Shown piece after piece: positions 39,548 to 58,742 of a DNA stretch of 64,000 nucleotides (the stretch's first letter is position 1; each line of letters starts with the position of its first letter). The stretch is taken from positions 186,001 to 250,000 of the forward strand of contig NZ_QZDU01000001.1 in NCBI RefSeq assembly GCF_009917525.1. The letters run 5' to 3'. The notes under the pieces were generated by a model. It saw only the letters and a list, made by a program, of their open reading frames with translations, was not told the DNA's origin and searched no databases. This DNA comes from Acutalibacter sp. 1XD8-36. Its GTDB lineage: Bacteria > Bacillota > Clostridia > Oscillospirales > Acutalibacteraceae. A program made the position numbers and the translations under genes.

Positions 39548-39879
39548 ACCAAGCACTCCTCTTTTTTGATTCTGCCGGATGTCCACGCCCCGGTCCTGAT
39601 ACCGACACCCGGCAGCCGGTTCAGCAGAGCCTTCTTCATGCCGTCAAGGTACTTCTGGTAGAGCTGTTTCTGGAGGTTCTCCATCCACGGGAGGCCCCAC
39701 GGTTCCTCCTTCTGGACCAGCTCCACCGCCAGCGACCACTCGTTGTCCTCTACGCAGACGTAGAACAGCTTGCTCTCCAGAATGACCCGGCGACTCAAAT
39801 CGCCATACGGCCCATTCCTGAGCCACTCATTCGTTCCGGCCCTCTCGAAACCGGGGAACATCTGGCAGAAATCCGCCAT
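39544..39879 (-). CDS. Hypothetical phage protein next to a deletion junction
   Basis: 111 residues from the ATG at 39879 (GGAG upstream). Reads ADFCQMFPGFERAGTNEWLR...VEDNEWSLAVELVQKE. Unknown function. Its ribosome site lies where the truncated amidase reading frame ends, so the DNA just upstream was probably replaced by deletion. Confidence 0.6.
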   Translation of the reverse strand: MADFCQMFPGFERAGTNEWLRNGPYGDLSRRVILESKLFYVCVEDNEWSLAVELVQKEEPWGLPWMENLQKQLYQKYLDGMKKALLNRLPGVGIRTGAWTSGRIKKEECLV

Positions 39880-40099
39880 GAAGCACTCCATCGGATTTCG
39901 GGGTGTAGGCCAATGTTTTGTCCTTATCTCCGAACCACAGCAGTTTGCTTTTGCCGTTCCGCCTGCAGATGTCCACGCACAGCTTGATGAGCGTGGCGTA
40001 CGCCTTGTCGTTTACAGCATAGGGGTGTGTAGTATCGCTGGCGCACTCGATGGTGACAGCCCGGTGGTCATTGGCCCCGGACGATGTACACCAACACAT
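39827..40099 (-). pseudogene. Internal fragment of an amidase-type endolysin
   Basis: Only about 60 residues (WCTSSGANDHRAVTIECASD, then YATLIKLCVDICRRNGKSKLLW and KTLAYTPKSD) match the middle of phage N-acetylmuramoyl-L-alanine amidases of the PGRP type. The N-terminal zinc region and C-terminal catalytic part are missing. The 3' end runs out of frame into the next gene. Phage lysis by this enzyme is therefore not possible, and no holin is seen. Confidence 0.7.
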
Positions 40100-41849
40100 G
40101 GTTTACCCCGTTCTTTGCCGCCGTGGTAGCATCCTCCCAGACGGGGGAGCTGTCCTTGCCGTTGTTCGTGACCTTCACGGAAAATGCGGCATCTGCCGGG
40201 ATGGACCCCATGACGTTGATGGCGCAGATGGTGATTTGAGCATCCGCTTCCATCGGTGTCTCCAATGTGATGACCGCCCTTGTGACCTTCTTCGTGAACC
40301 TAAGCGTCCTGGTCACAGTGACCTTGCCGTCCGTGACCTGAATGACCATCGTGTGCTGGCCGTTCAGGAGTTTCTGGAAGTAGTCGCCAGTCACGGCAAA
40401 GCTGTTGTTGGTCTTCCTCGTCGCTGTGAAGGTGCGCTTCACCGCCCCGTCCATTTTCTCTGTCACGGTCAGGGTGTCGGCGGTGTCCACATCGTCCACT
40501 GAGTAGGTGATGGAGAACCCACTGGCCTTCATGCCGAGGTCGGCGCCGTCTGCGCTGGAGCAGGTGATGGTGGGCGGCGTGTTGTTGTCTACCGTGCGCT
40601 CGGCGGAGGTCGTGTAGCCGGATGCCGCATTGTAGGCGTCATACGCCTTGACCCGGTACTTCACCTTCGTCCAACCCTTCGTGATGGTGTCAGTGTAGCT
40701 AAGGGCGTTCCCTTTGTAAACCTGCGTCCACTCCGTTCCGCCGTTGATGCACCGCTCCAGAATGTACCCGCTTAGGTTGCCATCGCTGTCGCTGGCCGCC
40801 GACCATGACACAATCAGCGAGGCCCCTCCCTTCACTTCGTTCGGGACGGAGATTGCCGGGGGCGCACCGGGGGCCACGTTGTTCACCACCGTCACCTGCG
40901 AGCTGGTCTTATAGCCAGAGTGCAGGCCGTCACTATCGTAAGCACGAACTCGGTACATCACCGACGCCGTGCCGAACGCCACGGCGTCGGTGGTCTGGGT
41001 GGCGGTTCCCTGATATATCTGGCTCCATGTGCTGCCGCCGTTGGTACTCTTCTCCACCTTGTACCCCGACAAATTATTCTCTTTATCGGTACTGGTCCCC
41101 CACTTTACGGTGATGGTGCTGCCGCCCATGATGGAGCCAGGGACGGTGATGCTGCTGGGGACGGTTGGCGCTGTGTTAGTCGAGATGCTACCATCATCAG
41201 AGACCAAGAGAGAAGAGGGAAGTACCAAAGCGGGGCGGACGCCATAAGAGTTGGAGCAGTTGTTGCCGCCCCAGTCGCCATTGGTGTAGACGTACAGGGC
41301 GCGCGTGGCGCCGTAGTTGGAGCTGCAGTAGGGAGAGCGGAGCCACCAGCCCACGGCCGAACCGTTCAGCTTCGCAATCCGCTTTGCATCCGTCTGAGCA
41401 CAGCCGGAGAAGTATGACAGGCAAGCACCGTCATTAGGAATATAGGAATGGGTGCTTGATGTCCAGTTCACCTCCGGGCCGGACAGCAGGAAAATCTTTG
41501 TTGACAGGCCATTAGCCCCGCTGGTGATAGTCGTTCCGTAGCCGGAGCCTGCCCGGTACGGGAGCTTGACCTGCTTGATAGCCGACTTGATGTTGGCATC
41601 GAACAGGTTCAGGAACGTGCTGTTGAGGTAACTGCGGATTTCGCTGTTGGCATAGTCGTTGACGTTGGAGCTGTGCCACCGCTTACTTTCGTAGCAGTCC
41701 TCCATCAACAGCCATGTTCCATCGCAGCTCGTGTCGTACAGCGAGGACGGCCGCCCTTGATGTACGACGATAAAGTTCTTGTCTGCTCCGCCTACCTTCA
41801 GCTTCACGATAGAGCCGACGGCTTTGGAGCTGAGAGCCACATTTGCCAT
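40068..41849 (-). CDS. DGR target protein: variable DUF6273-like domain with FN3-like repeats
   Basis: 593 residues. N-terminal DUF6273-like domain (1-210) has the hallmark WWLRSP near 168 and GVRPAL near 204. The variable repeat covers residues about 163-207. Two FN3/Ig-like domains (about 225-320 and 322-420) and a third beta domain follow. Probably a phage receptor-binding or adhesion protein. It starts 24 bases after the RT, AAGGAGG upstream. The last nine residues (VLVYIVRGQ) are amidase DNA read out of frame, so the true C-terminus is lost. Confidence 0.85.
   Translation of the reverse strand: MANVALSSKAVGSIVKLKVGGADKNFIVVHQGRPSSLYDTSCDGTWLLMEDCYESKRWHSSNVNDYANSEIRSYLNSTFLNLFDANIKSAIKQVKLPYRAGSGYGTTITSGANGLSTKIFLLSGPEVNWTSSTHSYIPNDGACLSYFSGCAQTDAKRIAKLNGSAVGWWLRSPYCSSNYGATRALYVYTNGDWGGNNCSNSYGVRPALVLPSSLLVSDDGSISTNTAPTVPSSITVPGSIMGGSTITVKWGTSTDKENNLSGYKVEKSTNGGSTWSQIYQGTATQTTDAVAFGTASVMYRVRAYDSDGLHSGYKTSSQVTVVNNVAPGAPPAISVPNEVKGGASLIVSWSAASDSDGNLSGYILERCINGGTEWTQVYKGNALSYTDTITKGWTKVKYRVKAYDAYNAASGYTTSAERTVDNNTPPTITCSSADGADLGMKASGFSITYSVDDVDTADTLTVTEKMDGAVKRTFTATRKTNNSFAVTGDYFQKLLNGQHTMVIQVTDGKVTVTRTLRFTKKVTRAVITLETPMEADAQITICAINVMGSIPADAAFSVKVTNNGKDSSPVWEDATTAAKNGVNHVLVYIVRGQ
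41230..41361 (-). repeat. DGR variable repeat (VR)
   Basis: 132 bases aligned without gaps to the template at 43303-43434. By my count it differs at 14 sites (41240, 41266, 41267, 41269, 41270, 41276, 41288, 41294, 41302, 41303, 41315, 41323, 41350, 41351), all adenines in the coding-strand template. Nine Asn codons and one Ile codon are changed, giving G, S, Y, R, Y, Y, D, G, G and V. Confidence 0.95.
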
Positions 41850-41872
41850 GGTTCATTTCCTCCTTGTAGGTA

Positions 41873-43063
41873 TTACATCCACGGCGGAAGGTCGTCATCG
41901 AATGGCTCAGAACGGGAGATTGGGACAGGGCTGACTGTCTCACCTCTCTTCCTTTGGATGTTCCGATACTGCCTTGCTCTCCGCTTGTTCCTTGCCTCTA
42001 AGGTGGAATTGATTTTTCGGTGGACCTCTGGCATCACACCGATAATCTCCTTCACCTGACCAGCGAACTTCTGCCGTAGTGCGTAGGTGTCACCGTGGGC
42101 TGCGTAAGCATCCCACGCTTGGAACTTTCCGAGGGTTTTCTCCTTCGTGATAGTCCCCTCTGCATAAGCCTTCCTCCAGAACTTGACACGAGAACTCATG
42201 CGGTCTATGTTGCTCTGTCGGAGCTTCTGCACACAGGCCCCGGTCTCTGTAAGGTAGGAGTGGAAGCCGAGGAAGTCGATACCGTTCCGCAGCGGGAAGA
42301 TACCGGTCTTCTGGTTCAGCTCCAGACCGAGGCAGTCCATCCACTCATCAATCTCCTTCAAGAGCCGCTGAAGCTCTCGCTTTGTACGGGCGATAATGTA
42401 GAAGTCATCCATATACCGTCCATAATACCGATAACGCTTGACTTCTTTGATGTGGTGGTCAAACTCATCGAGGAACAGCAGGGCGAGTAGCTGAGAGGTC
42501 TGGTAGCCCAGCGGAAGGCCCTCTGAGGCGTCGATGTAGATACACAGCAGGTCGTAGACCTGCATATCGAGGACCCGGCGCTCAAATACCTTCCTGAGCT
42601 TGGCTTTCAGTTTGTTGTGGTCTATGGATGCGAAAAAATGCCTGACATCGCACTTCAGCACCCACCCGTCTGCACTACCGTTTCGCCGGTAATACTCGAC
42701 CATGTGATACTTCAGGCGCATCAGGCCGTCATGTGTTCCTTTTTGCTTTTGGCTGGCGAAGTTGTCTCGGATGAAGCTCTTGCAGATGGCGTCGTACAAG
42801 ATGTTATCCACGACAGCATGGAGAACCACCTTGTCCACGAACGCCGGAGCCTGCACCAGCCGTTCCTTCGGCTCATAGACCTTGAATATTTCAAACTTGC
42901 TGGGAGTATAGACCTTCTTGCTCAGGATGGCAGACAGCTTCGCTGTACAGACCAAAGCGTTCGCTTCATACTGAGCGGTGGAAACCTTGCTTCGTTTTCC
43001 TTTTCTCGCTGTCAGGTACGCTTCGTAGAGCGTCTCAAAGGAACACATCTCTTCATAGGTCAA
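41873..43063 (-). CDS. DGR reverse transcriptase
   Basis: 396 residues from a TTG at 43063 with AAAGGCGG six bases before it; the frame is open upstream to a GTG at 43291 but that part reads through template-flanking DNA. RT fingers/palm: KCDVRHFFASIDH, then the DGR-specific LGYQTSQ (42491-42508; retrons and group II introns have QGxxxSP), catalytic YMDD (42404-42415), and KTGIFPLRNGIDFLGF. It copies the template RNA with adenine errors for retrohoming into VR. Confidence 0.93.
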   Translation of the reverse strand: MTYEEMCSFETLYEAYLTARKGKRSKVSTAQYEANALVCTAKLSAILSKKVYTPSKFEIFKVYEPKERLVQAPAFVDKVVLHAVVDNILYDAICKSFIRDNFASQKQKGTHDGLMRLKYHMVEYYRRNGSADGWVLKCDVRHFFASIDHNKLKAKLRKVFERRVLDMQVYDLLCIYIDASEGLPLGYQTSQLLALLFLDEFDHHIKEVKRYRYYGRYMDDFYIIARTKRELQRLLKEIDEWMDCLGLELNQKTGIFPLRNGIDFLGFHSYLTETGACVQKLRQSNIDRMSSRVKFWRKAYAEGTITKEKTLGKFQAWDAYAAHGDTYALRQKFAGQVKEIIGVMPEVHRKINSTLEARNKRRARQYRNIQRKRGETVSPVPISRSEPFDDDLPPWM

Positions 43064-43302
43064 AGCGCACCGCCTTTCAACATAGGCTGGCCGGGTTAGT
43101 AGGAGAAGCTCCGGCCAGAAAAGCCTAACACCGGTCCCCTTCTCCAAGGTAGCAGACTGCGCCCCTTGTGGGGCGGCCTGCCTCGGTGTGATGTGTTTAT
43201 CGTCAGCCCATGCACAGGCTTCCGACAGGATGTGACCCCCTTTGATGATGGTGTACCGCTTTCGCTCCCATTTGGGAGCTACTCGTCTCACTTTCCATCA
43301 GA

Positions 43303-43434
43303 GCGGGGCGGATGCCATAAGAGTTGGAGCAGTTGTTGTTGTTCCAGTTGCCATTGGTGTTGACGTTCAGGGCGTTCGTGGCGCCGTTGTTGGAGTTGCA
43401 GTAGGGAGAGCGGAGCCACCAGTTCACGGCCGAA
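43303..43434 (-). ncRNA. DGR template repeat (TR) RNA region
   Basis: Lies between the Avd-like gene and the RT, about 240 bases before the RT start. It holds 33 coding-strand adenines, mostly in 14 Asn codons (13 AAC, one AAT) where VR is varied, so mutable positions are concentrated at ligand-facing codons. A GCTCCC AAAT GGGAGC hairpin (43264-43279) follows downstream. The RNA probably extends beyond these limits into the spacer. Confidence 0.93.
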
Positions 43435-43487
43435 AAATACGGGTCACACCCTAATACAAGGCGGATGCCTCCGCCGGGTATCTGAAA

Positions 43488-44096
43488 TTATGTCTGCTGG
43501 ACCTTCTTCTCGGCGTTGTACTGCCGTATGGCCGTCTTCACGACCTCGACTTGCCGGGCGTCCTGCTTTGCCTCCTCATCGGAGCGCAGCTTGTTCGCCC
43601 GTGCGCCGTCGTTCTTCTTCCACGATGCCGTCATGTACTTAACATCCAGCACTTTTTTGGTCCATATCTCGCTCTTCTTCAGGGAGATGACGCCCATGTC
43701 CTGCACAATCTGGATATACTCCAGCAGCAGAGAACATCCGTCCAGCACTTTCCCTATCAGCCGCAAGCGCTCATTGTACTCCGTGGCGAACATCTTGCCG
43801 TTGGCGGCATGAATGTCCCGAACGATTCCCTTCGCTATCAGACGCATATCCTCGCCATAGCATCGGTACATCGCCTTCGTGAAGCCGTCTTTTTCCTTGC
43901 GGTCGAGCTGGCCGATAGTTGTCTGGCAGATGCTCTTGACCTCACGGATGTCATCCAGAGCAGCGATTTTCTGGAGGATGACCCGGACATCCTTCTGGCT
44001 CACATCATCGGTCACGACTTTCGTGGCCTGATTGGTGTACTTCAGAAGCTCCCTTGCACGGTTCCCCAGCAGGTATTCCTTGTCAGCCATGCTCAC
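43488..44096 (-). CDS. Avd-like DGR accessory protein
   Basis: 202 residues, almost all helical: about four long helices from residue 15 to 160, basic C-terminal tail. It sits directly upstream of TR, the usual avd place (avd-TR-RT). Avd forms a helical-barrel pentamer that binds RT and RNA. The core VKSICQTTIGQLDRK...LLLEYIQIVQDMGVISLKKSE fits that type, but it is longer than the about 130-residue prototype. Assignment from position and predicted fold. Confidence 0.65.
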   Translation of the reverse strand: MSMADKEYLLGNRARELLKYTNQATKVVTDDVSQKDVRVILQKIAALDDIREVKSICQTTIGQLDRKEKDGFTKAMYRCYGEDMRLIAKGIVRDIHAANGKMFATEYNERLRLIGKVLDGCSLLLEYIQIVQDMGVISLKKSEIWTKKVLDVKYMTASWKKNDGARANKLRSDEEAKQDARQVEVVKTAIRQYNAEKKVQQT

Positions 44097-44331
44097 ACCT
44101 TCTTTCTAAACAGGGACCGCTTCTTGCCGCCTCTAAATCGCAAACAGGGCCATTGTAGAGGCAGCGGTCTCCAAGTATCACAAGCTGGGCGTCCACCCCG
44201 CTGTGCGTGGTGCCTGTTATGGTCAGATGGTCGCTGCGGGGAGCATCACAGGGAGGCCGTATCTCAGCGAACAGGTTTCCGATGATGCAGGACAGCTCCG
44301 ATGGGGCGCAGGCAAATACAATCTCTTCCAT
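44083..44331 (-). CDS. Small protein between tail fibre and Avd-like gene
   Basis: 82 residues. Its ATG overlaps the fibre gene's TGA (ATGA), and its own end overlaps the Avd-like gene by 14 bases, so all three are translationally coupled. It has four cysteines and reads ITGTTHSGVDAQLVILGDRCLYNGPVCDLE, possibly beta-rich. No family recognised. Confidence 0.6.
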   Translation of the reverse strand: MEEIVFACAPSELSCIIGNLFAEIRPPCDAPRSDHLTITGTTHSGVDAQLVILGDRCLYNGPVCDLEAARSGPCLERRCEHG

Positions 44332-45062
44332 CAGAACTCAATCCTCTTTGCCGTCTCGTTCCAGACACCCTCAACCACCACGCCGGTCAGCGTGGCGAAG
44401 GTGACGGTGAACGGGTTGCCGGAAACATCGGTGTTATACATCAGCTCCATCAGCGCCAACCGAGAATCAAGGTCTGAGATGATACCCTGAATATACGGGT
44501 GCGCCGTAATGGAGCTGTCGTGGGTGTTGATAAGCTCCTGCGCTGCGCTCAGGAACAAGGGGAGCATGACGACGTTGCAATACTCCGATACGTCCTCCGC
44601 CGTCATCCACGCCTCGCACTTGTAGTCCACCGACACGCCGAGGTCTTCGCCGATGACGATGCAGACCGGGAACCGGCGTACATCGACGCCCTGTGGGGAG
44701 TAGGCGCTCACATACTGCGGGTAGATGCCAAGGCAGCCGTAGTAAATCATCACCTCGCCTTTGTCCGGGTCGTAGGCGTACACGCCGAACTCCCTCAGCC
44801 AAAAGCCGTGGTCCAGACCGCCATTCAGGTCGGACCGATACTCCACAATCATCCTCACCGTGTTCTGGTCGTAGACCGGCTCAGTGGAGGTCGCCAGCGC
44901 CACCGGCTCCGACAAGTCCTCCATTTCTCTCGGATTTCCGAAGTCAGGCACCCCGCCGGTCCCGACCATGATTTTTGAGAGTTGGAGCTGCTGCCCGGCG
45001 GTCAGCTTCGCTATCAGCTCCCGGCCATTTCTCGTGACCACGAATCCATAGAAATCTTCCAT
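44331..45062 (-). CDS. Tail fibre, N-terminal baseplate-attachment type
   Basis: 243 residues. N-terminus FYGFVVTRNGRELIAKLTAG and DHGFWLREFGVYAYDPDKGEVMIYYG follow the phage tail-collar/DUF3751 fibre pattern, where the N-terminus docks on the baseplate. It is short for a full fibre, so the distal part may be the DGR target protein encoded downstream. Confidence 0.75.
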   Translation of the reverse strand: MEDFYGFVVTRNGRELIAKLTAGQQLQLSKIMVGTGGVPDFGNPREMEDLSEPVALATSTEPVYDQNTVRMIVEYRSDLNGGLDHGFWLREFGVYAYDPDKGEVMIYYGCLGIYPQYVSAYSPQGVDVRRFPVCIVIGEDLGVSVDYKCEAWMTAEDVSEYCNVVMLPLFLSAAQELINTHDSSITAHPYIQGIISDLDSRLALMELMYNTDVSGNPFTVTFATLTGVVVEGVWNETAKRIEF

Positions 45063-45065
45063 GCG

Positions 45066-45740
45066 TCATTCCTCCATTTCTGGCAGTTTTGTCTGCGTGA
45101 TATTCCTGAAGGCCGGGATGGGCCTTACCGTGTCCTCCATGCTCTCGGCCACCGGGATTTCCGGCAGGACGGTCGAGGTGTACCCCCGGCCCATCAGCCC
45201 TTCAACGGTGAGCAAATCCATCATCTCCGGCGATGCTGTCCGGGCGATGACCTTGATGCCGACGCCAGCCGCCTTGATGAGTGGGGCATTCAGCAGCTTC
45301 GGCACATCGTCCTCCGGGGAGAGCATATCGGTCTCAAATACCATCGTCGCCGGTTCCGCCGGGTCCTCCCGATAGTACAGAGGCTTGGGCCAGAACATCC
45401 GCAGGGCCTTGATTACGTCGTGATAAGTGCAGTTGTTCGTGTTCTTCCAGACCTTGAAAATCAGGTATCGCCGGTAACTCTCGTCATCCAGCACATACAC
45501 CGATTCGTTGATACAGGCCAGCGCCCCGGCTTCCAACCGGCTCAGGACAACGATGTCCCCTACCCCGTCGAGCTGCTGGCCCATCGAAGTCTGGAGGCCC
45601 CGTCGGTCCCGCAGGTCTTCGTAGAACCGCCGCACATCGTTAAGCTGCTCCCCGATAGCTGAGACCAGAGCGTCGATGACCGGCTTTTCCTTGAACTGTT
45701 CAACAAGGTCTCCCCTCAGCAGCTCCACATAGTCAGGCAT
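45066..45740 (-). CDS. Baseplate wedge protein (DUF2612 / tail protein I-like)
   Basis: 224 residues. N-terminal helices with QLNDVRRFYEDLRDRRGLQTSMGQQLDGVGDIV and YRRYLIFKVWKNTNNCTYHDVIKALR match DUF2612 proteins, which take the place of gpI between gpJ and the fibre. It overlaps gpJ by eight bases. Confidence 0.78.
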   Translation of the reverse strand: MPDYVELLRGDLVEQFKEKPVIDALVSAIGEQLNDVRRFYEDLRDRRGLQTSMGQQLDGVGDIVVLSRLEAGALACINESVYVLDDESYRRYLIFKVWKNTNNCTYHDVIKALRMFWPKPLYYREDPAEPATMVFETDMLSPEDDVPKLLNAPLIKAAGVGIKVIARTASPEMMDLLTVEGLMGRGYTSTVLPEIPVAESMEDTVRPIPAFRNITQTKLPEMEE

Positions 45741-47169
45741 CTATGACCACCTCGATTCTGTTCTCATCGGTCACAGCCCTTTCTCTGGGGGAAACTGAGA
45801 CGCTGCGCTGCGTGTACTCCTCCGGCATCTCCCCGTCCTCAGTGGTCGAGAACATCCAAACGTCGATGTAGTCAATGCCCGACACCTGTAAATTGAACTT
45901 CTGTGGGATGACGCTCTCGCCGGACTCCAGCTTACCCACCCTCTCCAAAATCTGCTCTTTGATAAGTTCAGCATAGTTGATGGGCGGGTTGGTGTTCCGG
46001 CTTAGGGTGATGCCGACCTTGAACCAGACCTTGACATAGGTGGGCCGATTGAAGCGCACCACGATTGGCTCCCCGTACTCTCCGGGGAGCGTGACCTCCA
46101 CGGAACCGAAGCTACTGATACCCCCGGATTTCTTGTCGAGTATCTGACGGGCTATCTCCGTGGCGTCTCCTCCGTCCACTACCACCTCGACGCTGTGCGG
46201 CCAGCGTCCCATACTGTCCACCTCGTTGCTGTCATTCTCATAGGGGGCAACGCTCAGGACACCTTGCACGTTCTCCAAAATGGCGCTCTTGATGCTCTCC
46301 AGCATGGAGGATGAGCGGTTATAGATTTTGTCGGCATAGGACCTACGGAACTCCACGTCCGTTTCTGCGAGCTGTCCGGCGATGTGGTCCCCTACATTGA
46401 CCACCTCCATCAGACCGGCCACAGCCTTCACGACCTTCGTGACAACCCCGTTCGGAATCAGGATGTCCCCGTCATCCACGGTCGCAAACGTGATGACGCT
46501 GCCGACCGAGGCCGTGGTCAGGTTTTCCGACAGCACCATCACGTTTGAGCTGGTGGGGTCAGTAGCCTCGATGTGGAGAGCATCCTCCTTCATGCTCACC
46601 CTGAAGTCCGGGTCAGTGATGACCTCCCCTAATGCCGCTAAATTCTCGCTTACGCTCTTTGCGGCATCGGGGGTGATGGTATATAGGGTTCCGTTCAAAG
46701 CCACCCCCAGCGCCGCCGTAGCCCCCGGAGATGCCAAAATAATAGCCGCCTTGTTGAAGGCGGCACGGGTAATCATGGAATCGCTCGGCAACGTCAGGTT
46801 CGTGGCCGGGCTGGTGTCTGTCGCAATCAGGGTCCCCGCCGGAATCACTGTACCGTCTTGGCCGGTGCAGAGTATGCGGTAGTAGGATTTCGCTGGCATC
46901 TCACGGGTGGAGCCGCCAAACTGAGCGGCGTTGTCCAGGCTGACGCCGGTGGCGCTGGATGGGTACTGCGAGTAATAGACTTCCTCGCCGAACTCCCACA
47001 GCTCCGCTATCCTGTCCGCAGCGTTGGTCAGCAGGTGATTCAGGAAAGACTGCGTGTTCTGCCCGATGTTGACGCCCAGCTTCTTCGTCATGCTCTCCTG
47101 CATCTCCGCAAGGATGACATCCAGCCGCTTGATATTCGGGCCTCTGTCTGTCAATCCGTACTCTGGCAT
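45733..47169 (-). CDS. Baseplate J-like (gp47) protein
   Basis: 478 residues. Start YGLTDRGPNIKRLDVILAEMQESM, then YYRILCTGQDGTVIPAGTLIATDTS and ETDVEFRRSYADK near residue 270, typical of gpJ/gp47 wedge proteins. It builds the baseplate arms with gp25 and the gpI analogue. Confidence 0.9.
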   Translation of the reverse strand: MPEYGLTDRGPNIKRLDVILAEMQESMTKKLGVNIGQNTQSFLNHLLTNAADRIAELWEFGEEVYYSQYPSSATGVSLDNAAQFGGSTREMPAKSYYRILCTGQDGTVIPAGTLIATDTSPATNLTLPSDSMITRAAFNKAAIILASPGATAALGVALNGTLYTITPDAAKSVSENLAALGEVITDPDFRVSMKEDALHIEATDPTSSNVMVLSENLTTASVGSVITFATVDDGDILIPNGVVTKVVKAVAGLMEVVNVGDHIAGQLAETDVEFRRSYADKIYNRSSSMLESIKSAILENVQGVLSVAPYENDSNEVDSMGRWPHSVEVVVDGGDATEIARQILDKKSGGISSFGSVEVTLPGEYGEPIVVRFNRPTYVKVWFKVGITLSRNTNPPINYAELIKEQILERVGKLESGESVIPQKFNLQVSGIDYIDVWMFSTTEDGEMPEEYTQRSVSVSPRERAVTDENRIEVVIDA

Positions 47170-47516
47170 AGTTTCACCTCCTCCCTAAAGGTATCTTCAT
47201 CCGTCGTGAACGTGACGGCGATAGCCGCCTGCCGGGTCTTCTTGTCTATCTGGAAGGTGATTTCTGTGACATCGGTGACGCCTTCCACCTCCATCACGGT
47301 CTCACGAATCAGATGCCGCAGCTTCATCTCGTTCGGGTTCTTCACGAAGAGATACTCGAAGTACGGAAAGCCCAGCTCAGGTCCCAGCCTCCACTCCTCG
47401 AAAAACCACAGCAGGCGGATTCTCACCGCCTGAGCGATGCTGTCCGTGGGGATAACGTCTCCCGCTGCTGACAGCTCCAAATCGCCGTTGCTATCGAGTT
47501 TCAGGTCTACCATCAC
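47151..47516 (-). CDS. Baseplate wedge gp25/W-like protein
   Basis: 121 residues. WFFEEWRLGPELGFPYFEYLF and LIRETVMEVEGVTDV are hallmarks of gp25-like/DUF2634 sheath initiators. It overlaps the start of gpJ by 19 bases, as in other contractile tails. Confidence 0.88.
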   Translation of the reverse strand: MMVDLKLDSNGDLELSAAGDVIPTDSIAQAVRIRLLWFFEEWRLGPELGFPYFEYLFVKNPNEMKLRHLIRETVMEVEGVTDVTEITFQIDKKTRQAAIAVTFTTDEDTFREEVKLCQSTD

Positions 47517-47517
47517 A

Positions 47518-47808
47518 TCACCCTCCTATGAACACATCCCCGCTCCCGCCTTGGACCGCCCCGCTTATGGAAACGGCGTCGCCAACACGGGCAGCAGGCT
47601 TTCCATTGATAAAAACCGTACTGCTCCCGGTGGCAATCACATCTTGGTGGCTGGAATGGGTCACGCACCCATGCGCCGAGTAGTGGTCGCCCATGCGCCC
47701 GGCGCCCCGCCCGTTTATCTTCACATCCGGGCTGCACTCCACCAACGGAACGGGCGGACAGGCATCATGCCCGGTACAGTTGTCTCCTTGTCGTGTGGCC
47801 TGCGCCAT
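47518..47808 (-). CDS. PAAR-domain spike tip protein
   Basis: 96 residues made of PAAR repeats: ARQGDNCTGHDAC, DVKINGRGAGRMGDH, TVFINGKPAARVGDAVS, with conserved His/Cys for metal. It caps the membrane-puncturing spike encoded next upstream. Confidence 0.92.
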   Translation of the reverse strand: MAQATRQGDNCTGHDACPPVPLVECSPDVKINGRGAGRMGDHYSAHGCVTHSSHQDVIATGSSTVFINGKPAARVGDAVSISGAVQGGSGDVFIGG

Positions 47809-47820
47809 TCTTCTCCCCTC

Positions 47821-48327
47821 CTAATTTAGATTCACGATACCGCCGCTCACGGTAAGGTTGCCGGTAATAAACACGCCGTCCGCCCTCACCTTCAGCACCG
47901 TACTCCCAGCTTTCACGACGGCTGCATCCTCGGCGCAGGCTGTTTGCATGGCGTCCCGCCCTTTGGGAGAGATGCCAGGGATAGCAATAGCATTACTCAG
48001 GTCGAACTTCAAAGCCGTGTCCGTCTCTTTCCCGTACATCCAGTAATCAAGGGCGGACTCAGCGAACACCAGCAGACAGCCATCGCCCTCTTTGATGGGC
48101 CATGCAATAGCGACATTGGCGCTCTGAGGGAATATCACAGGGACGCCGGAAACGACCGGGAAATCCATCGTCTCGCCGTTCGGTTTTTTGAACTTCGCCA
48201 CCGGCTTCACCGTGGCAAGGCCGGTTCCGGGGTCGAACTTTTCAATCCTTCCGGGAAGGGCTGTGTGCATTCCCTCTGTCGCCTTCCTCGCCGTCCTGTT
48301 TATCTGGTCTACAAGCTCCTGCATCAT
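47821..48327 (-). CDS. Gp138-type membrane-puncturing spike
   Basis: 168 residues. ALPGRIEKFDPGTGLATVKPV (OB fold) and GDGCLLVFAESALDYW, then a C-terminal beta-helix ending VRADGVFITGNLTVSGG. Matches the gp138 spike family (PF18352). Forms the central needle under the hub. Confidence 0.9.
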   Translation of the reverse strand: MMQELVDQINRTARKATEGMHTALPGRIEKFDPGTGLATVKPVAKFKKPNGETMDFPVVSGVPVIFPQSANVAIAWPIKEGDGCLLVFAESALDYWMYGKETDTALKFDLSNAIAIPGISPKGRDAMQTACAEDAAVVKAGSTVLKVRADGVFITGNLTVSGGIVNLN

Positions 48328-48328
48328 C

Positions 48329-49168
48329 TCAGCTCACCTCCAGCAGCCGGGCCGTGCAGGTCCACGACCCTTCCATGTTGTCGCCTTCCACCACCACCGA
48401 GTAGACCCGGAAATATCCCCGGACGTACTTGCTATTCAGGTACACAAAATCGTCTATGTTGATAGCAGCGTTCATCAGGTACTCCACGTCCCAGCCATAG
48501 CTGAAACTGCCGTTCTCCTCCGAGATTTGCACCCGCTCAGGAGTGCCGACGAGACCTGTCTCAGCAGACAGCTCATAGACCTCCCGGCTCATGGTGTCTC
48601 CCGGCTTCTTCACCTGAAGCACCCCGTTGTTGATGCTCCAGACAAGGCCGCTGGTCTCGCAAGCCTTCGTCAACACATTCCGAGCCGGGCCGACGTAGCT
48701 GTACCCGTTCGGAATATCCTTGAAGGTAGCATTGTAGGCGAACGAGACCGTCACACCCATCTGGTCGGCGGTGTCCTGAATGAGCGTCTTGCAGTTGACG
48801 GCGCCGGTGTAGCTGACGGATACGTAGGTATCTCTCAGCTCTATGCGGTTGTCTACCAGCTCCAGCTCCGTCAGCTCATCGCTGCCGTCCAGCTTCGTCT
48901 TGGCAAACGTCACCACGCCAGCAAAGATGAGTGGCATGACTGAGCCGTACCCCGCCCGGAGAGCCACCACACAGTCATCCTTGTTCAGTTCCGCCTTGTG
49001 AGCCGGACTAAGGTTCCACAGGGAGACCTTGGCGGTGTTGGCGCTGTCCGTGTCCGCTTTCTCCACCGAGAACGAGATATGCAGGGGGCGGGAGTCTCCG
49101 CCTATCTCGAATCCCTGCGACCCGGCTTTCCCGGCGGCCAGCCTGTACTGCCTGTCAAAATTTTTCAC
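48329..49168 (-). CDS. Baseplate hub protein
   Basis: 279 residues, beta-rich with VSLWNLSPAHKAELNKDD near residue 49, GVVTFAKTKLDG near 84, and a LysM-free middle. Order (hub-spike-PAAR-gp25-gpJ) and pattern fit simple-myophage hubs such as Pam3. It starts the baseplate block. Confidence 0.82.
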   Translation of the reverse strand: MKNFDRQYRLAAGKAGSQGFEIGGDSRPLHISFSVEKADTDSANTAKVSLWNLSPAHKAELNKDDCVVALRAGYGSVMPLIFAGVVTFAKTKLDGSDELTELELVDNRIELRDTYVSVSYTGAVNCKTLIQDTADQMGVTVSFAYNATFKDIPNGYSYVGPARNVLTKACETSGLVWSINNGVLQVKKPGDTMSREVYELSAETGLVGTPERVQISEENGSFSYGWDVEYLMNAAINIDDFVYLNSKYVRGYFRVYSVVVEGDNMEGSWTCTARLLEVS

Positions 49169-49242
49169 TCAGGGTCCTCCTTCCGCATAAGCACGAAAAA
49201 AGAGTCGCATCGCTGCGACTCTCTTCCCATGATGTATTCAGT

Positions 49243-49770
49243 TTATCTCGTTTGGAGCAACTCCCTCTTCAGGAGCGCACATTCAAGGATGATGGCATCC
49301 AGCCGGTCCAGTGCCGAGCTTCTGGCCGAGGCTTTCACTTCCGGGAAGTCTCTGGGCGGCTGGACCGGCTGGGCTTCCACCTGCTTCTGGGGCTTGTCAG
49401 GCCATTTCATGTAGCCTCTGGCTACCTCTTCGCCCATTTCCTTGACTTTCGGAATCACTTCGTCCTCAAACCAGCGAATCGCCGAATACGGGGCCGGTCT
49501 CCTGCACAGGAACTTGACGGCGTTCTCGGCGCTGAAGCAGGTATGCTCACACCGCCCTCTCTTCATGCCGTTGTCCCACGGCACTTTCCTGAGAACCGTC
49601 TCGATACGGTTCACTCCCTGATTGCCGCCGGTGACTGCCTTCCTCGGCATCTCATATCCGGCAATCACGGCGAGGTCTGACCCGCAGAAAAAGGCCACGC
49701 CGTCCGGGTCAAAAACGACCCGCAACTCCTGCCGGTCGGCGGTAGTGAAGATAGCGCAGTTGTCACGCAT
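49243..49770 (-). CDS. Bro-N domain protein, candidate antirepressor
   Basis: 175 residues from the ATG at 49770. Bro-N features: VVFDPDGVAFFCGSDLAVIAGY, then FLCRRPAPYSAIRWFEDEVIPKV. Such proteins act as phage antirepressors or DNA-binding regulators. It lies in a small insert within the tail genes and is driven by operator-promoter B, hence a regulatory moron. C-terminal Pro-rich linker and coiled segment. Confidence 0.8.
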   Translation of the reverse strand: MRDNCAIFTTADRQELRVVFDPDGVAFFCGSDLAVIAGYEMPRKAVTGGNQGVNRIETVLRKVPWDNGMKRGRCEHTCFSAENAVKFLCRRPAPYSAIRWFEDEVIPKVKEMGEEVARGYMKWPDKPQKQVEAQPVQPPRDFPEVKASARSSALDRLDAIILECALLKRELLQTR

Positions 49771-49960
49771 CCCGACCACCTCCCCCATAGAGGCAGGACC
49801 TCAGCCCCTCATACCTGCTACTGAAAATCTCCTTCAGGATGATGACAGCCCTTTCCACCTTGTCGCCGTCCATGTCGGCGATGCAGGCGTCCATCATGTC
49901 AATGGCTGTGCCAACGTCGCCCATGCGAACTACTTCCGTCTCAATGCTTGCTCTGTTCAT
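49763..49960 (-). CDS. Small helical protein upstream of the Bro-N gene
   Basis: 65 residues from the ATG at 49960, overlapping both the upstream small gene (ATGA) and the Bro-N gene. It reads TAIDMMDACIADMDGDKVERAVIILKEIF, a two-helix acidic protein, then GLRSCLYGGG. Unknown function. Confidence 0.55.
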   Translation of the reverse strand: MNRASIETEVVRMGDVGTAIDMMDACIADMDGDKVERAVIILKEIFSSRYEGLRSCLYGGGGRDA

Positions 49961-50112
49961 CTGTCGAAACGCCCTTTCGTAAAAAGTCTCTTGCGATGTT
50001 CCGGCAGATATGCTACAATGGGAATCGTTAAGGCACCCTTCTTGCCAGAACACGCTTCGCAAGGCTGGGTGGACAATTCGGGAACGATGCTTGCTTTCTG
50101 AGGGCGGGGCAT
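49957..50112 (-). CDS. Small basic CxxC protein, first gene of the Bro-N operon
   Basis: 51 residues from the ATG at 50112, about 22 bases after the expected transcription start of promoter B. It contains CEAC, then a basic C-terminus AYLPEHRKRLFTKGRFDR. Its stop overlaps the next start (ATGA). Unknown function. Confidence 0.5.
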   Translation of the reverse strand: MPRPQKASIVPELSTQPCEACSGKKGALTIPIVAYLPEHRKRLFTKGRFDR

Positions 50113-50128
50113 CGTTCCCTTTTTTCCT
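50077..50128 (+). terminator. Hairpin with U tract on the plus strand
   Basis: GGGAACGATGC ... GCATCGTTCCC with TTTTTT on the plus strand. No rightward gene ends here, so it may stop antisense transcription; on the minus strand the same hairpin lies in the Bro-N operon leader and overlaps its first codons. Confidence 0.5.
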
Positions 50129-50140
50129 GTCCACATTCTC

Positions 50141-50169
50141 ATTCTAACTTACCGTCTTGGTAATGTCAA
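50141..50169 (-). promoter_or_regulatory. Operator-promoter B
   Basis: TTGACA (50164-50169), 17-base spacer, TAGAAT (50141-50146). Spacer holds the palindrome TTACC-AAGAC-GGTAA (50149-50163). It drives the small-protein/Bro-N operon. The stretch from 50170 to 50370 holds short direct repeats (GGTACGGTAC, GGTTTAGGTACGG) but no gene that I can see. Confidence 0.85.
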
Positions 50170-50370
50170 TTCAAGTTACCAATGACATCACGCCTTTTTT
50201 ATAGCTCAACCGCAACGGTAAGTCTGAGCGTAGCGAAGACTTACAAAAAGGTCTTTTAAGGTATTGGTACGGTACGGTTTAGGTACGGTACGGTTACGCT
50301 GAACATTTCGCACACGGTTCTTTACACTGTGCGTCTTTTGTGCGGCGCACAGTGTTTGAACAATGCGCTC

Positions 50371-50679
50371 TCACGCTGGAATGAACACAAACTGCACTGT
50401 GCCATTTTGGAAATCAGCACGTCCAATGCTTTCCTTCTCGGTAAGTGCTGCAAACACGCCCACAGGAAGTTCCTGCGTCCCATAGAACAGGTTGAGCGGG
50501 AACTGCGGTACAATCCTCACTCCGATAAGCAGAGGCGCTCCAAGGGCGTCTGAGAGGCCGAAGGTCCAGAATCCGCCGGTGTCGTTCCATGTGAAGCGAA
50601 TCTGGTACTGCTTGCCTCGCAGGGTGATTCTGGAGGTGCTGTCGTTCATGTCCGGCACCTCAATGATGATGTAGTCCAT
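50371..50679 (-). CDS. Baseplate plug protein (Pam3 gp18-like)
   Basis: 102 residues, beta-rich. ITLRGKQYQIRFTWNDTGGFWTFGLSD and LIGVRIVPQFPLNLFY match the plug domain of cyanophage Pam3 gp18, which seals the tail tube. It lies between the Dit-like gene and the hub, as expected. Confidence 0.82.
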   Translation of the reverse strand: MDYIIIEVPDMNDSTSRITLRGKQYQIRFTWNDTGGFWTFGLSDALGAPLLIGVRIVPQFPLNLFYGTQELPVGVFAALTEKESIGRADFQNGTVQFVFIPA

Positions 50680-50690
50680 GCTGCACCTCC

Positions 50691-51317
50691 TTACAGCAGT
50701 CCGAAGCTGCTGGCTGCGTTATAGAGGATGGAGCCGCTCTTTCCTGAGCCGCTGGATTTTCCAGAGCCTCCGCCTCCTGAACTGCTTGACCCGCCGCCAG
50801 AGCTGCCAGAGCCGGAACCCCCGCCGGACGAACCAGACCTTGTGTTGGCTGTTCCGCCGGAGGCCCCGGTTTTGCCTGACTTGCCATAGCTGGCCGGGAT
50901 GGTGACGGTCTTGCTCTCCGTCACCACAATCTCTTTGAATGAGATGGGGATTTCACGAGCATAGCCGACCTCGGCGGTTTTCTTGATGCTGAGGCTGGTG
51001 ACGGCCATGTTGGAGTAGACCGCATCGGACGTGATAACCTCGACCGGCAGCTTTTTGAAATACATCTCCTTCAGCCGCTTCACGACTGCCTCGGTCTTGC
51101 CGGGACCGGAACCGAGGCGGCCTTTCCATGTTACGGGGGTATCAGTGACAAACAGCGTCATGTTCAGGACGGTCGCCTTCAGCACGATGGTATCGCTGAC
51201 CTTGAAGCCCTTCTCCGTAGGGTACTCAGGGACCTCGGACTCATAGTTCTCCTCGGAATCTATGAGAGCGTCGAACTCGATGCCGCCGACGCTGACTGGC
51301 TGCTTTGCTCTTGCCAT
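50691..51317 (-). CDS. Dit-like baseplate/tail protein
   Basis: 208 residues from the ATG at 51317; the upstream extension lies inside the tape measure gene. The N-terminal domain VSVGGIEFDALIDSEENYESE...GFKVSDTIVLK...TDTPVTWK follows the Dit-like phage tail N-terminal family. The C-terminal 60 residues are an extreme Gly/Ser tract (SGSSGGGSGSGSSGGG) before GSILYNAASSFGLL. Confidence 0.82.
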   Translation of the reverse strand: MARAKQPVSVGGIEFDALIDSEENYESEVPEYPTEKGFKVSDTIVLKATVLNMTLFVTDTPVTWKGRLGSGPGKTEAVVKRLKEMYFKKLPVEVITSDAVYSNMAVTSLSIKKTAEVGYAREIPISFKEIVVTESKTVTIPASYGKSGKTGASGGTANTRSGSSGGGSGSGSSGGGSSSSGGGGSGKSSGSGKSGSILYNAASSFGLL

Positions 51318-51321
51318 CCTA

Positions 51322-52862
51322 TCACCTCGCTGTCGCCAACGCCCGTGCCATGGCGCTGGTGGAATCCTCCGAAGCCTTATCCATGGCCTCAGCACTCTTC
51401 TCCTGCCCAGCACGGTCGCCGTTGAATGTGTTGTTGATTTCTACCTTCTGCGTCACGGTCCGGCTGGAAACGCCGGTGCCACTGGCAGTCTGAGCGGTGC
51501 CTCTGGACACCACACTTGACTTGGCGATGACGGACATATCGCCCGTCACCAACTCCAGAGCGCCCTTGACCTTCTCCTTACCTGCTGTGATACCCTTGGT
51601 CATCAGGTCTATCATGTCCGGCATATAGGTATGGAAATCGCTAAGGGGGCCGACCTCCGGCTCAGAGAATCCAAGGAACCCCTTTATAGTGCTTGCCACA
51701 CCAGATACAGCGTCACCTATCCAGCCAACGGCGCTCTTGATGCCATCCACAATTCCTTGGATGATGTCTTGGCCCCACTTGACCGCCTGAGCTGGCAGCG
51801 CCAAAATCCAGTCGATTGCTACTTGGAAGCCGTTGACGATGGCGTCCTTTATCCCCGTGACCTTCTCGACGATGACATCCCACGCCGCTTGGAAGAATCC
51901 ACCGAAAATCTCGGCCAGCTTATTCCAGACGGCGCAGATGTTATCCCATGCGGTACTGAGGATGGTCGTTATCATCTCCCAGATGGCGGAGGCGATGTCC
52001 TTAATGGCGTTCCATGCGCCTTCCCAATTACCTGTGAAGACGTTTGCGAGAAAGTCGATAATACCGGCTATGGCGTCCAGAAACGGCTGAATCAGCGAGA
52101 TGAGCATATTCCAGATGTTGCTGAACACCGTGATGATGGTCTCGCCCCACACGTCCCAGAACGCTTTCAACGCACTAAAGATGGTCTCTGCTGCGCTCTT
52201 CAGGGCGTTCCACAGAACCTCGCAGATGGTCTTGATGCCCTCCCATATCTTGGAGAAGGATTCCTTGACCTGCTCTCCGTTCTCAGCCCACCATGCGGAC
52301 AGAGCGCCGAAGATGGCCTGCGCTGCGCCTTTGATGACCTCCCACACATTCAGCAGGAACGACTTGATGGTATTCCATGCGTTCAATATGGTCTGCCTTG
52401 CGTTGTCTGCCCCGATACCTGCCTTGTCGAACAAAGCTCCGATGACGCTGTTGTCTCCACGCATGAACGCTATGAAGTCCTGAATTATCAGGGCAATCAG
52501 CAGGAAAATGGCAAAGAACAGTAGCGCCTTTCCTGCTCCCGCTCCAAGCGCCTTCGCCAGCTTTTGGAATCCCTCCACCGCCCCCATGATTTTCTTCACG
52601 TTCATCACTAAGAACGTGGCGGCGAGAGCTGCGGCCAGTACCTTCAAGATTCGTTCCGCTCCGCCTACTTTGGCGGCGAAGTCGGAGATTTTCTGGATGA
52701 TGTTTCGCAGCGAGGTCAGGCCCCGTGTGCCGTAGCTTATGACCTTCTGGAACGTCGGCATGAAGAACTGGCCGATGAGCTGCTTGACCTCCTTCAGTTT
52801 GGAGTTGAATCGCCGGACCGTACTCTCATAGGAGCCGAGACTGCGCTCACAGTCTCCAATCG
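51322..52862 (-). pseudogene. Tape measure protein, 5'-truncated
   Basis: In-frame tape-measure sequence runs from about 52862 (IGDCERSLGSYESTVRRF) to the stop at 51322; the first ATG in frame is at 52761 (479 residues). Membrane-prone segment near 40-85, then tryptophan-rich 20-40 residue repeats such as FSKIWEGIKTICEVLWNALKS, typical of tape measures. The N-terminal part is missing, fused to the tail tube gene. Confidence 0.8.
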
Positions 52863-52939
52863 GCGATGCCGGTCACGATATGCGGACCGGCAGAGATGAC
52901 CACTTCTTTCGGGTTATAGGTCTTGATTTTGGAAGACAT
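52847..52939 (-). pseudogene. Tail tube protein, truncated to 30 residues
   Basis: ATG at 52939 with GGGAGGT upstream, just after the sheath gene. SSKIKTYNPKEVVISAGPHI is the N-terminus of the XkdM-like tube protein (about 150 residues when whole). After residue 27 the frame enters tape-measure DNA out of register and stops. No functional tube can be made. Confidence 0.78.
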
Positions 52940-52953
52940 TTATGCTACCTCCC

Positions 52954-54111
52954 TTACAGATTCTCATAGGTCAGGCACCCAGAGATGTTGACCACATGGA
53001 TTGCCCCGGCCAGCCGTGCGGAGAACCGACAATCGCTCAGAACACGGGACGCCTTCTGGACGCTGGTGAGTTCGGAGGCCAGCGGCACAGATGTAACATA
53101 GCCGGGGTTGGCGTTGCCGTCGGCGTCGTACTCAGTAGGAGCGATGCCGCCGTACTTCTGCCCGTCTTTCAGTGAGGCAAGCATCTGATTATCCACCAGA
53201 CCTATGCCCCCGTCTGTGTACGGGATTTTCGGATTCACCACCAGCAGGTTGACCACCCGAACCTGCATATCGTTCTGGAGCCAGTCACGGAAGCGGATGA
53301 CATCAATCCACTCCCCAGCGTTGGTCTTGCCGCCCTGCGTCAGATTCTTCGACGCAACGGTGGTCAGATAGGTGATGTTAGCCGCCTCCAACTTCTTGAT
53401 GAACGTGGACTTCAGCTTGGCCGGGTACACGGCGGCGAGCTGCTTCAGCGCCCACGTTTCCTCCCCTGCGTGGTAGTGCATGGCCTTTGACGCCAGAGCG
53501 ACCGCCATGCCGTACTGGTTCTCCACCGGCACTTCATGGTCGGGCTGGTCGGCGGTCTCCTTGGCGAAGAGGGGAAAACTGCGGAAATAGAGGCCGGGCT
53601 GCACCATGGGGTCATCCGGGTCGTTGTCGATGTACCCGCAGATTTTGTTCTGCGTCTCGGTCCACTGGATGACCTCCACCACCTGCGACCTCTCCAAACC
53701 GGCGGGGCAGATGCAGTACCAGCCGTTGATGCTGAGGGCGTTGTCCAGCGTCTCGGACACGCTCCACGGCTTGCCTTCAGCGACGGCCTGCTCCAGCTCC
53801 TCGTCCGTAGGCTCTTCAGGGACGGGAACGGTGTCGGCTATGACCGCCACATACACCTCATGCGGCCGGGGACTCTGGGAAAAGGCCACCCGTGCCGCCA
53901 CGCCAACGGGGTCGGCATCTGCGCCGGTGGCAACAAAGCCCAGCTCCGTCAGTTCGTTCAGACTGCGGTACACACCCACAGCGGGGATGTCCTCCTTCTG
54001 GACTTTGGGGGCCGGGCCGAGAATCAGGATGTTGTCAAAGCTGGCCTCGTTCGCAATCGGGCTGGCAAGCGAGATGTCAACCGTACAAATCCTGTCAAGA
54101 TTTGCGCTCAT
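52954..54111 (-). CDS. Contractile tail sheath (DUF3383-type)
   Basis: 385 residues, apparently complete. ICTVDISLASPIANEASFDN and SVQKASRVLSDCRF...GAIHVVNISGCLTYENL fit DUF3383 sheath proteins of simple myophages. It surrounds the tube and contracts on adsorption. It stands after the terminator gene, in the normal order. Confidence 0.85.
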   Translation of the reverse strand: MSANLDRICTVDISLASPIANEASFDNILILGPAPKVQKEDIPAVGVYRSLNELTELGFVATGADADPVGVAARVAFSQSPRPHEVYVAVIADTVPVPEEPTDEELEQAVAEGKPWSVSETLDNALSINGWYCICPAGLERSQVVEVIQWTETQNKICGYIDNDPDDPMVQPGLYFRSFPLFAKETADQPDHEVPVENQYGMAVALASKAMHYHAGEETWALKQLAAVYPAKLKSTFIKKLEAANITYLTTVASKNLTQGGKTNAGEWIDVIRFRDWLQNDMQVRVVNLLVVNPKIPYTDGGIGLVDNQMLASLKDGQKYGGIAPTEYDADGNANPGYVTSVPLASELTSVQKASRVLSDCRFSARLAGAIHVVNISGCLTYENL

Positions 54112-54112
54112 A

Positions 54113-54832: not shown

Positions 54833-55166
54833 CAGCAGCCTCCTCCTTTCCGTCCGGACCAATTTTCGGCCGGGGGACCCGCCTCGCCTCAGCCTCCGAC
54901 ACGATGACAAACTCGCTTCGGCAATGACTGAGCATCGTATGGTCCCAGCCGAGAGAACTCACGCACTCGTACCAGTGGCCCTCCGGGTCCATCTTCCCAT
55001 GATAAAACAGCCAGTCTCCCCGGCGGCCGGTAGACTGGTCTGCGGTAGTGAACACAAGGTCTCCAAACGCCTTCATGCGTTTGACCCGTTGCTCGCCTTC
55101 GGGGAGGGCTTGAATCTCATCCTTTGACAAGGGCTGCACATTCAGGTGTGCTAGCCTGTTCAGCAT
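54819..55166 (-). CDS. Head-tail connector-like protein, 5' end altered
   Basis: 115 residues from the ATG at 55166 (GGAG eight bases upstream), but the first ten or so codons are portal DNA read in another frame. TTADQSTGRRGDWLFYHGK...YECVSSLGWDHTMLSHCRSEFV is an unnamed phage structural pattern next to terminator genes. Native start probably deleted. Confidence 0.6.
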   Translation of the reverse strand: MLNRLAHLNVQPLSKDEIQALPEGEQRVKRMKAFGDLVFTTADQSTGRRGDWLFYHGKMDPEGHWYECVSSLGWDHTMLSHCRSEFVIVSEAEARRVPRPKIGPDGKEEAADDAE

Positions 55167-58726: not shown

Positions 58727-58742
58727 TACTTGTATATTATTA

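Follow-up and report, generated by a model that had tools for sequence, protein, structure and literature searches.

A probable FP_Brigit/tentaclin-type diversity-generating retroelement in a degraded prophage of Acutalibacter

The prototype diversity-generating retroelement (DGR), that of the Bordetella phage BPP-1, needs a hairpin after its variable repeat (VR), and such a hairpin has been proposed as a conserved requirement; the target site of this type is a GC-rich hairpin of 7-10 bp with a GRNA loop, 4-34 bp after VR (PMC3240598). In a 2026 paper the hairpin appears as important rather than strictly needed, an internal adenine of the spacer primes the complementary DNA (cDNA) and stays attached to it, and entry of the cDNA into VR is called incompletely understood (PMC12875486). 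The subject here is a DGR in a 64,000-nt stretch of Acutalibacter sp. 1XD8-36 (assembly GCF_009917525.1, contig NZ_QZDU01000001.1, positions 186,001-250,000, forward strand), hereafter the window; loci compared with it carry L numbers. It is highly probable that this is a DGR of the FP_Brigit/tentaclin type, with the order Avd, template repeat (TR), reverse transcriptase (RT) and target, residing in a degraded prophage.

The nearest described systems are those of Faecalibacterium phages and of the tentaclin group. PMC5883640 places VRs at the 3' end of genes, lists Avd only for Mushu and Lagaffe, assigns Hoc-like targets to Brigit and Mushu, and reports VR variation in reads of Mushu. In PMC11792537, DUF6273 targets are described for Lelie and CP11 and an Ig target for Mushu; VRs vary among cognate genomes of Roos, Lagaffe_CP and CP11 and in reads of Roos and Pioen, with a shifted peak in Mushu and none for Lelie; the same paper names BioProject PRJNA1082652, which contains public reads of induced Faecalibacterium phages. 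Tentaclins consist of an N-terminal C-lectin domain, Ig domains and a conserved C-terminal Ig domain (PMC10743442). Cassettes with a moved VR are also on record (PMC6642488), and further DGR literature was drawn upon (PMC8867640, PMC8144416).

The repeat pair and its reverse transcriptase

TR (43434-43303) and VR (41361-41230) form the longest direct repeat found within 38000-46000. Over 132 ungapped positions the two differ, on the coding strand, at 14 sites (A>G 10, A>T 3, A>C 1), that is, at 14 of the 33 template adenines and at none of the 99 other positions; the probability that 14 random differences would all land on the 33 adenines is 3e-10. An initial annotation had given the same gap-free 132-base alignment, with 14 differences all at adenines and no change at the 99 non-adenine positions, and the program alignment bears out both statements. 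At E 0.01 a TR query of the strain's own genome matched only itself and the known VR, and no second VR was found.

The asymmetry extends to relatives. Changed sites in nine close loci fall on 117 of 274 adenines and 2 of 788 other bases, and in 60 loci on 840 of 1799 adenines and 41 of 5386 other bases, with 34 of the 60 free of any non-adenine difference. The 60 derive from 90 sources, from which 28 without a pair, one copy of the window (L007) and one ambiguous case (L050) were dropped. L074 (47-180, 2146-2279) alone holds 10 of the 41 non-adenine differences, among 19 in its pair, and is the most decayed of the set.

Differences between templates also recur in the variable repeats. Among the nine close loci, both VRs mirror 152 of the 161 non-adenine differences counted between pairs of TRs (11 columns); this test was run without L009, in which an indel puts the TR out of register and which was included in the 60-locus version (441 of 451). 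The metagenomic relative L008 (IMG/VR 3300006213_000165) is 97.2% identical to the window over 7.1 kb, and 17 of the 18 positions at which its VR departs from the window VR are template adenines; the remaining one, T vs G at zero-based position 114, is mirrored between the two TRs. Two contigs from a single metagenome, L100 and L097, have 83-88% identity and are inferred to belong to one phage; their TR and VR have a common T at position 33. Directly after a common CCCGC, all nine close loci show a fixed step (TR TCTGATGG, VR TTTG), which marks the 3' limit of TR-to-VR transfer. At the level of sequence comparison, these relatives establish a one-way passage of information from TR to VR.

The RT lies between VR and TR and carries LGYQTSQ and YMDD, as first annotated. 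Grouping with group II introns or retrons had been named as the outcome that would tell against a DGR; in a tree that lacks retrons and rows L128, L049 and L052, 17 DGR RTs (BPP-1 bRT, 15 others and that of the window) split from two group II RTs with 100/100 support, which places the RT in the DGR clade. Its best solved relative is 8ub7 (E 6e-26; entry named 'Reverse transcriptase'), which we take to be the BPP-1 bRT, against E 6e-12 for a group II RT. The initial identification of the locus as a DGR thus stands, on adenine-only changes, a DGR-clade RT, Avd, and TR-to-VR copying in relatives. The RT most likely begins with TTG at 43063 and not with the first GTG of its open reading frame (ORF) at 43291, because the 396-aa RT of FP_Brigit aligns over 1-396 from 43063 and because the upstream frame is closed by stops in most listed relatives. 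For the latter reason the TR-RT spacer was rejected as an N-terminal part of the RT, its conservation being at the RNA level.

Other RTs were seen in the same genome. A second, distant DGR is present on the same contig (G000:C11:52000-62000; L108, VR 4935-5055, TR 5765-5885, RT ORF 5967-7286), with the opposite order (target, Avd-sized ORF, TR, RT) and all 15 of its 15 TR/VR differences at template adenines. An RT ORF with GFHTSQ and YMDD (G000:C11:3000-13000; L109, 4663-5853, plus strand) seems to miss the usual N-terminal part and is in frame with a different N-terminus; no TR/VR pair was found nearby. A further RT-like ORF of another kind (G000:C5; L110, 4947-6128, minus strand) has PQGSP and YSDD.

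A structured RNA between template and reverse transcriptase

Folding of the 253-nt strand that links the 3' end of TR to the RT gives a z of -2.67, a value that 1 of 200 shuffles equalled. Sixteen relatives aligned by sequence alone (A1) gave a consensus of 30 pairs in six helices, with 96.6% of cells paired and 56 double changes, against 19.4 in shuffled and 2-6 in slid controls; this alignment was not fitted to the model. A realignment of 45 sequences, which was fitted to a covariance model and is hence biased towards it, has a double change in 25 of 29 pairs and 195 cells in all, against 51.5 shuffled and 21-33 slid. An RNA of about 150 nt, here termed Sp, is common to the TR-RT spacers of the FP_Brigit-type family, with strong covariation. 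TCAAAGG is invariant in the 16 aligned relatives and variable among the 45 (AACAAAG, ATCCAAG and others).

Of 72 sources, 41 were matched at E<=1 by the covariance model (R1), with 42 matches in all, two of them in L021; the window and L103 (the record of L078) belong to the model itself. The 31 sources without a match at E 1 include most cassettes with VR before RT. Where the TR end is known, 17 of 19 matches start -9 to +2 bases from it, L016 and L086 being the exceptions. Long insertions in helix loops were seen in the Sp RNAs of L021 (3378-3653) and L016 (5785-5972). A scan of 295 genomes of the order matched eight, the own genome included. Beside the other seven matches lay an adenine-only TR/VR pair in six, an RT in six, and neither in one (L138); as L132 is L069 and L133 is L081, the latter a member of the model, 4 of 5 remain as independent cases. 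In a set retrieved through the target protein, outside the model, Sp was present in 10 of 10 loci tested with an RT (those of 27 RT-bearing loci on previously unused contigs) and in 0 of 25 without one. The model scored 24 bits on Mushu, at the right place, and 12 bits on the own genome's second DGR. Its extension to the BPP-1 spacer was rejected, no match being obtained even in an unfiltered search.

No Rfam 15 family reached its gathering score, the one sub-threshold entry being a CRISPR repeat on the opposite strand. A literature search that did not reach key BPP-1 papers found no such RNA family beyond the BPP-1 spacer structure. The model allows DGR templates to be located without a VR, and it marked RT-adjacent sites in loci lacking a repeat pair (e.g. 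L033, L036, L080, L083).

The sequence 3' of VR and entry of the cDNA

In VR-after-RT cassettes VR lies 182-3416 nt upstream of a stop codon, as against 9-158 nt in VR-before-RT cassettes, distances that are limited by contig reach and by mechanically picked frames. No perfect stem of at least 6 bp was found within 64 nt after VR in 37 loci, the window included, and the BPP-1 control returned 8 bp. Within 95 nt such a stem occurs in 1 of 44 VR-after-RT cassettes, where it is not GC-rich, and in 11 of 12 VR-before-RT cassettes (1 of 27 against 11 of 12 with near-copies removed). Perfect stems only were scored, and 44 of 49 VR-after-RT pairs were used (L012 and L016 end at VR, L013 is partial, L039 and L046 are near-copies). 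The search returned GCCCACGGAAGTGGGC in Roos (VR before RT) and a 6-bp stem, TCTCTG/CAGAGA, in Mushu (VR after RT). The second VRs reported in print for nd4, nd12 and Lelie were not found within 9 kb by an adenine-tolerant scan.

What follows VR in the FP_Brigit-type family is a pyrimidine-rich stretch in which some codons are fixed or nearly so. Across 20 aligned targets, codon entropy is 0, 0, 0 and 0.29 bits at P211, S212, L214 and S217, whereas 35 upstream conserved sites average 1.23 bits with a minimum of 0.30; the codons of L210 and G220, within the same stretch, vary. All 36 targets counted, drawn from two divergent groups, encode the first serine after VR by TCT, and 24 of 36 the second, although TCT makes up 88 of the 1911 other serine codons in these genes. 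The count covers the window and 35 of 61 target matches (19 A5 rows and 16 chosen for an alignable flank peptide) and excludes VR-after-RT loci with a different flank (e.g. L041, L044, L045, L047). At the aligned site 26 of the 27 homologues that have an RT in reach carry Ser-TCT (the other has Thr-ACT), as do 2 of 24 without one; eight further homologues could not be judged, kinship confounds the comparison, and near-copies are present in all TCT and codon counts. Exploratory as they are, these sequence comparisons show the FP_Brigit-type family to lack a BPP-1-like 3' hairpin and to have synonymously fixed sequence after VR. A pyrimidine tract universal to internal-VR cassettes was rejected, L044, L045 and L047 being without one (0.57-0.63 pyrimidine). 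In L150 and L153 the TCT codons are kept with no RT or Sp RNA in reach; these are possible DGR losses.

In Sp helix 1 the partner of the ATCAAAG strand is the TR 3' end; 22 of 29 loci have one or more mismatches among the first four bases of this pairing. Across these four bases all 29 loci show full complementarity of the same strand to the VR flank, and 7 of 29 to the TR flank (Sp AAAG with VR CTTT in 24 loci, Sp CAAG with VR CTTG in five related ones). Past base 4 TR pairs better: at bases 5-8 the VR matches in 18, 24, 16 and 2 of the 29 loci and the TR in 29, 26, 27 and 25. All spacer-VR tests were devised after sight of the sequences, and the looser ones were mixed. In 45 VR-after-RT loci mean runs were 5.58 for VR, 5.20 for TR and 4.44 shuffled, with runs of at least 6 in 24 loci for TR and 22 for VR. 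With Watson-Crick pairing in 32 such loci, none of 200 shuffles equalled the mean, VR beating TR in 18 and losing in 14; when G-T pairs were allowed, 115 of 200 were as good. In 14 VR-before-RT loci, BPP-1 among them, 33 of 200 shuffles were as good (112 of 200 with G-T). Complementarity as a rule for all DGRs was accordingly rejected, and what is retained is the four bases in the FP_Brigit-type family.

In BPP-1 the spacer segment AGGTGGTCA has 9 nt of complementarity to the junction on the VR side, where the initiation of mutagenic homing sequence (IMH) reads TGACCACCT, and 4 nt on the TR side, which suggests a spacer-VR match in this phage as well. By count the 9-nt match ends at Sp position 56, presumably the published priming adenine. 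A limited literature search did not find the hairpin-free class, the fixed codons or the spacer-VR match in print.

On the main reading of the locus as an FP_Brigit/tentaclin-type DGR, the avd-TR-Sp transcript would fold and bind RT-Avd, an adenine in AUCAAAG would prime cDNA on the TR 3' end, and the RT would misread template adenines. The resulting chimera of RNA and cDNA, which would run collinear with the antisense strand of VR through the junction, would then replace VR and change residues of the DUF6273 (putative C-lectin) domain of the target. It is further proposed, tentatively and with somewhat less than even confidence, that internal-VR DGRs recognise their target in a way other than by the BPP-1 hairpin: the priming strand would be antisense to the first bases 3' of VR, the RNA-DNA strand would run collinear through the junction, and a fixed pyrimidine-rich sequence within the coding region would replace the hairpin. 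If this proposal is true, the 9-nt match of BPP-1 would generalise how TR and VR are distinguished. A hairpin-less DGR family with a fixed sequence and a VR-matched spacer strand offers concrete, removable bases to test.

Other readings of the repeats and of the VR flank differ widely in probability. That the pair is a duplicated gene segment with ordinary mutation would account for the repeat itself and nothing else; changes in several directions at template adenines only, an adjacent RT and Avd, and the mirrored evolution of TR and VR reduce its probability to practically nil. A standard BPP-1-type DGR, with a DNA hairpin or cruciform 3' of VR as target site, is suggested by core parts that are the same as in BPP-1, but it is very unlikely given the near-absence of perfect stems (0 of 37 loci within 64 nt, 1 of 44 within 95 nt). 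Considerably more weight is due to the view that translation, protein folding or an overlapping promoter, rather than retrohoming, keeps the codons fixed: the stretch is coding and specifies a conserved peptide, comparison alone defines the element, and the RT-less homologues are also the more distant proteins. Against this stand the exclusive use of an otherwise infrequent serine codon at the first position and its concentration in homologues with an RT, so that this view, while possible, is the less probable one.

Target protein and prophage remnant

The N-terminal domain of the target matches Pfam PF19789 (DUF6273; E 7.7e-37). The protein also matches the PHROG 10993 'Hoc-like head decoration' family, and the Hoc-like protein of FP_Brigit aligns with it over 1-581 of 617. 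DUF6273, a putative C-lectin domain, is followed by an Ig region, an order that would fit the first part of the tentaclin layout; the last Ig domain is cut short in the window, and its end is retained in L008. To judge from its domains, a DUF6273 plus Hoc-like/Ig architecture fits a phage surface-binding protein.

Read along the minus strand, the tail fibre (44331-45062) and a small ORF (44083-44331) come first, followed by avd, TR, a 239-base spacer, RT, and target with VR inside (Table 1). The span initially given to the element, 40068..44096, owes its limit at 44096 to the Avd gene, which was left unnamed. The description 'complete' holds for the cassette and fails for its output, the prophage being a remnant and the target having lost its C-terminus.

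Table 1. Coordinates of the DGR and associated prophage features in the window
Feature	Position	Strand	Remarks
avd gene	43488..44096	-	202-aa ORF, ATG at 44090; PHROG 3206 'Avd protein of DGR', E 1.7e-29
Template repeat (TR)	43303..43434	-	33 adenines
Structured template-RNA element (Sp)	43147..43306	-	TR 3' end and spacer; six helices; covariation and model matches
Sp helix 3, terminal hairpin GCTCCC-AAAT-GGGAGC	43264..43279	-	Inside Sp element
ATCAAAG strand of Sp helix 1	43240..43246	-	Predicted cDNA-priming strand, adenine ~43241, by analogy with BPP-1
DGR reverse transcriptase	41873..43063	-	396 aa, TTG start, LGYQTSQ and YMDD
Target gene	40068..41849	-	Ig-like (Hoc-like) region after a DUF6273 domain; a deletion near 40093 cuts the C-terminus short
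Variable repeat (VR)	41230..41361	-	Inside target gene
Candidate target-site element, pyrimidine-rich CCCTCTTCTCTCTTGGTCTCT, codons 211-217	41199..41219	-	3' of VR; codons 211, 212, 214 and 217 (nearly) fixed synonymously in relatives
Amidase-type endolysin fragment ORF	39827..40099	-	Between two deletion junctions; PHROG 20388 endolysin, E 2.2e-28; Pfam Amidase_2 below cut-off
Remnant tail module	44331..55983	-	Fibre, baseplate, hub, tape measure, tube, sheath, head-completion, portal
Large serine recombinase (integrase)	58730..60553	+	

Several observations weigh against a DGR that still works as proposed. Completeness of the prophage was gauged against 40 FP_Brigit proteins, among which the terminase, major capsid, adaptor and neck proteins have no match in the window; the portal retains residues 186-429 of 828 and the tube residues 1-27 of 139. 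The target is without its C-terminus where the L008 copy extends to a longer one, and the amidase is a fragment of what is a 261-codon ORF in L008. A varied target may be of no use to a remnant prophage. The C-lectin fold with exposure of VR is the published model of relatives (PMC10743442), and the eight synonymous and nine nonsynonymous codon changes of the RT relative to L008 do not demonstrate selection. The second TR difference from L008 (position 18, G vs A) is unmirrored, both VRs having G.

The decay extends to other parts. The FP_Brigit endolysin and holins likewise have no match in the window, a module which may simply differ; the head-completion protein retains residues 25-135 of 141 and the tape measure 205-713 of 724, and sheath, baseplate J and RT are of full or near-full length. 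L008 has extra DNA of about 1.57 kb at window 40093 and about 2.25 kb at 39889, and of its segment 7330-9112 the own genome retains only 206 bases, apart from a 69% match beside the second DGR. On this gene content the prophage is very likely unable to make virions in its present state. Deletion junctions lie near 40093, 39889, 52866 and 55123-55178, with assembly error as a possible alternative. Over 12 kb the identity of L007 to the window is 100%, and the two probably represent one strain.

The chances are about even that the cassette is a fossil, once active in the phage lineage and in this strain stopped or without effect. The missing FP_Brigit terminase and capsid matches, the truncated portal, tube, tape measure and target, and a VR identical in L007 speak for it; yet RT, Avd, TR and spacer RNA are intact, 0 of 99 non-adenine sites differ, and the decay looks recent. 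Alternatively the host might have kept the remnant (tail genes, DGR and integrase), for example as a tail-like particle or adhesin, the entire DGR core being open together with several ORFs for tail and baseplate; a tube of 27 out of 139 residues, a tape measure without its first 204 and an amidase fragment make this highly improbable. What the window copy of this FP_Brigit-type DGR shows is that a DGR core can persist intact in a prophage stripped of much of its head and tail.

Some features of the surroundings were noted in passing. The portal fragment at 55117-55983 is joined at its N-terminus to a short DAM-like phage segment. Identity to L008 jumps along the locus (Avd 99.5%, RT 98.4%, baseplate J 93%, target 92% before and 99.6% after VR) in a manner resembling mosaic phages. 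A CotH-kinase ORF lies at 30071-31813, left of the prophage genes.

Comparison with described DGRs

FP_Brigit (Faecalibacterium phage, MG711465; PMC5883640) has the same order of tail fibre, Avd, TR, RT and Hoc-like target, with 67.7% identity to the window in the RT, 65% in Avd and 67.6% in the N-terminal domain of the target; it also has the same spacer RNA (128.5 bits) and no stem of at least 5 bp within 95 nt after VR. Its record holds terminase, capsid, endolysin and holin genes, whereas the window copy is a remnant. In contrast to PMC5883640, the FP_Brigit VR is found here to be internal, and RefSeq now names as Avd the ORF that is 65% identical to the window Avd.

The Faecalibacterium phages Lelie and Mushu share with the window the TR-RT-VR order and a VR inside the target gene; in Mushu the gene order is the same and the resemblance of the spacer RNA is distant (24 bits). 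Induction as a phage was obtained for Lelie and Mushu and not for the candidate prophage CP11, compared here by its description (PMC11792537). For phages nd4 and nd12, which have tentaclin DGRs, two targets are reported (PMC10743442), whereas a single VR was found for the window TR. With BPP-1 the window has Avd, TR, RT and adenine-specific change in common (PMC3240598), and the structured spacer of BPP-1 (PMC12875486) has its counterpart in the window family. Unlike the window, BPP-1 has its VR at the 3' end of the gene, its target upstream, and a GC-rich hairpin after VR.

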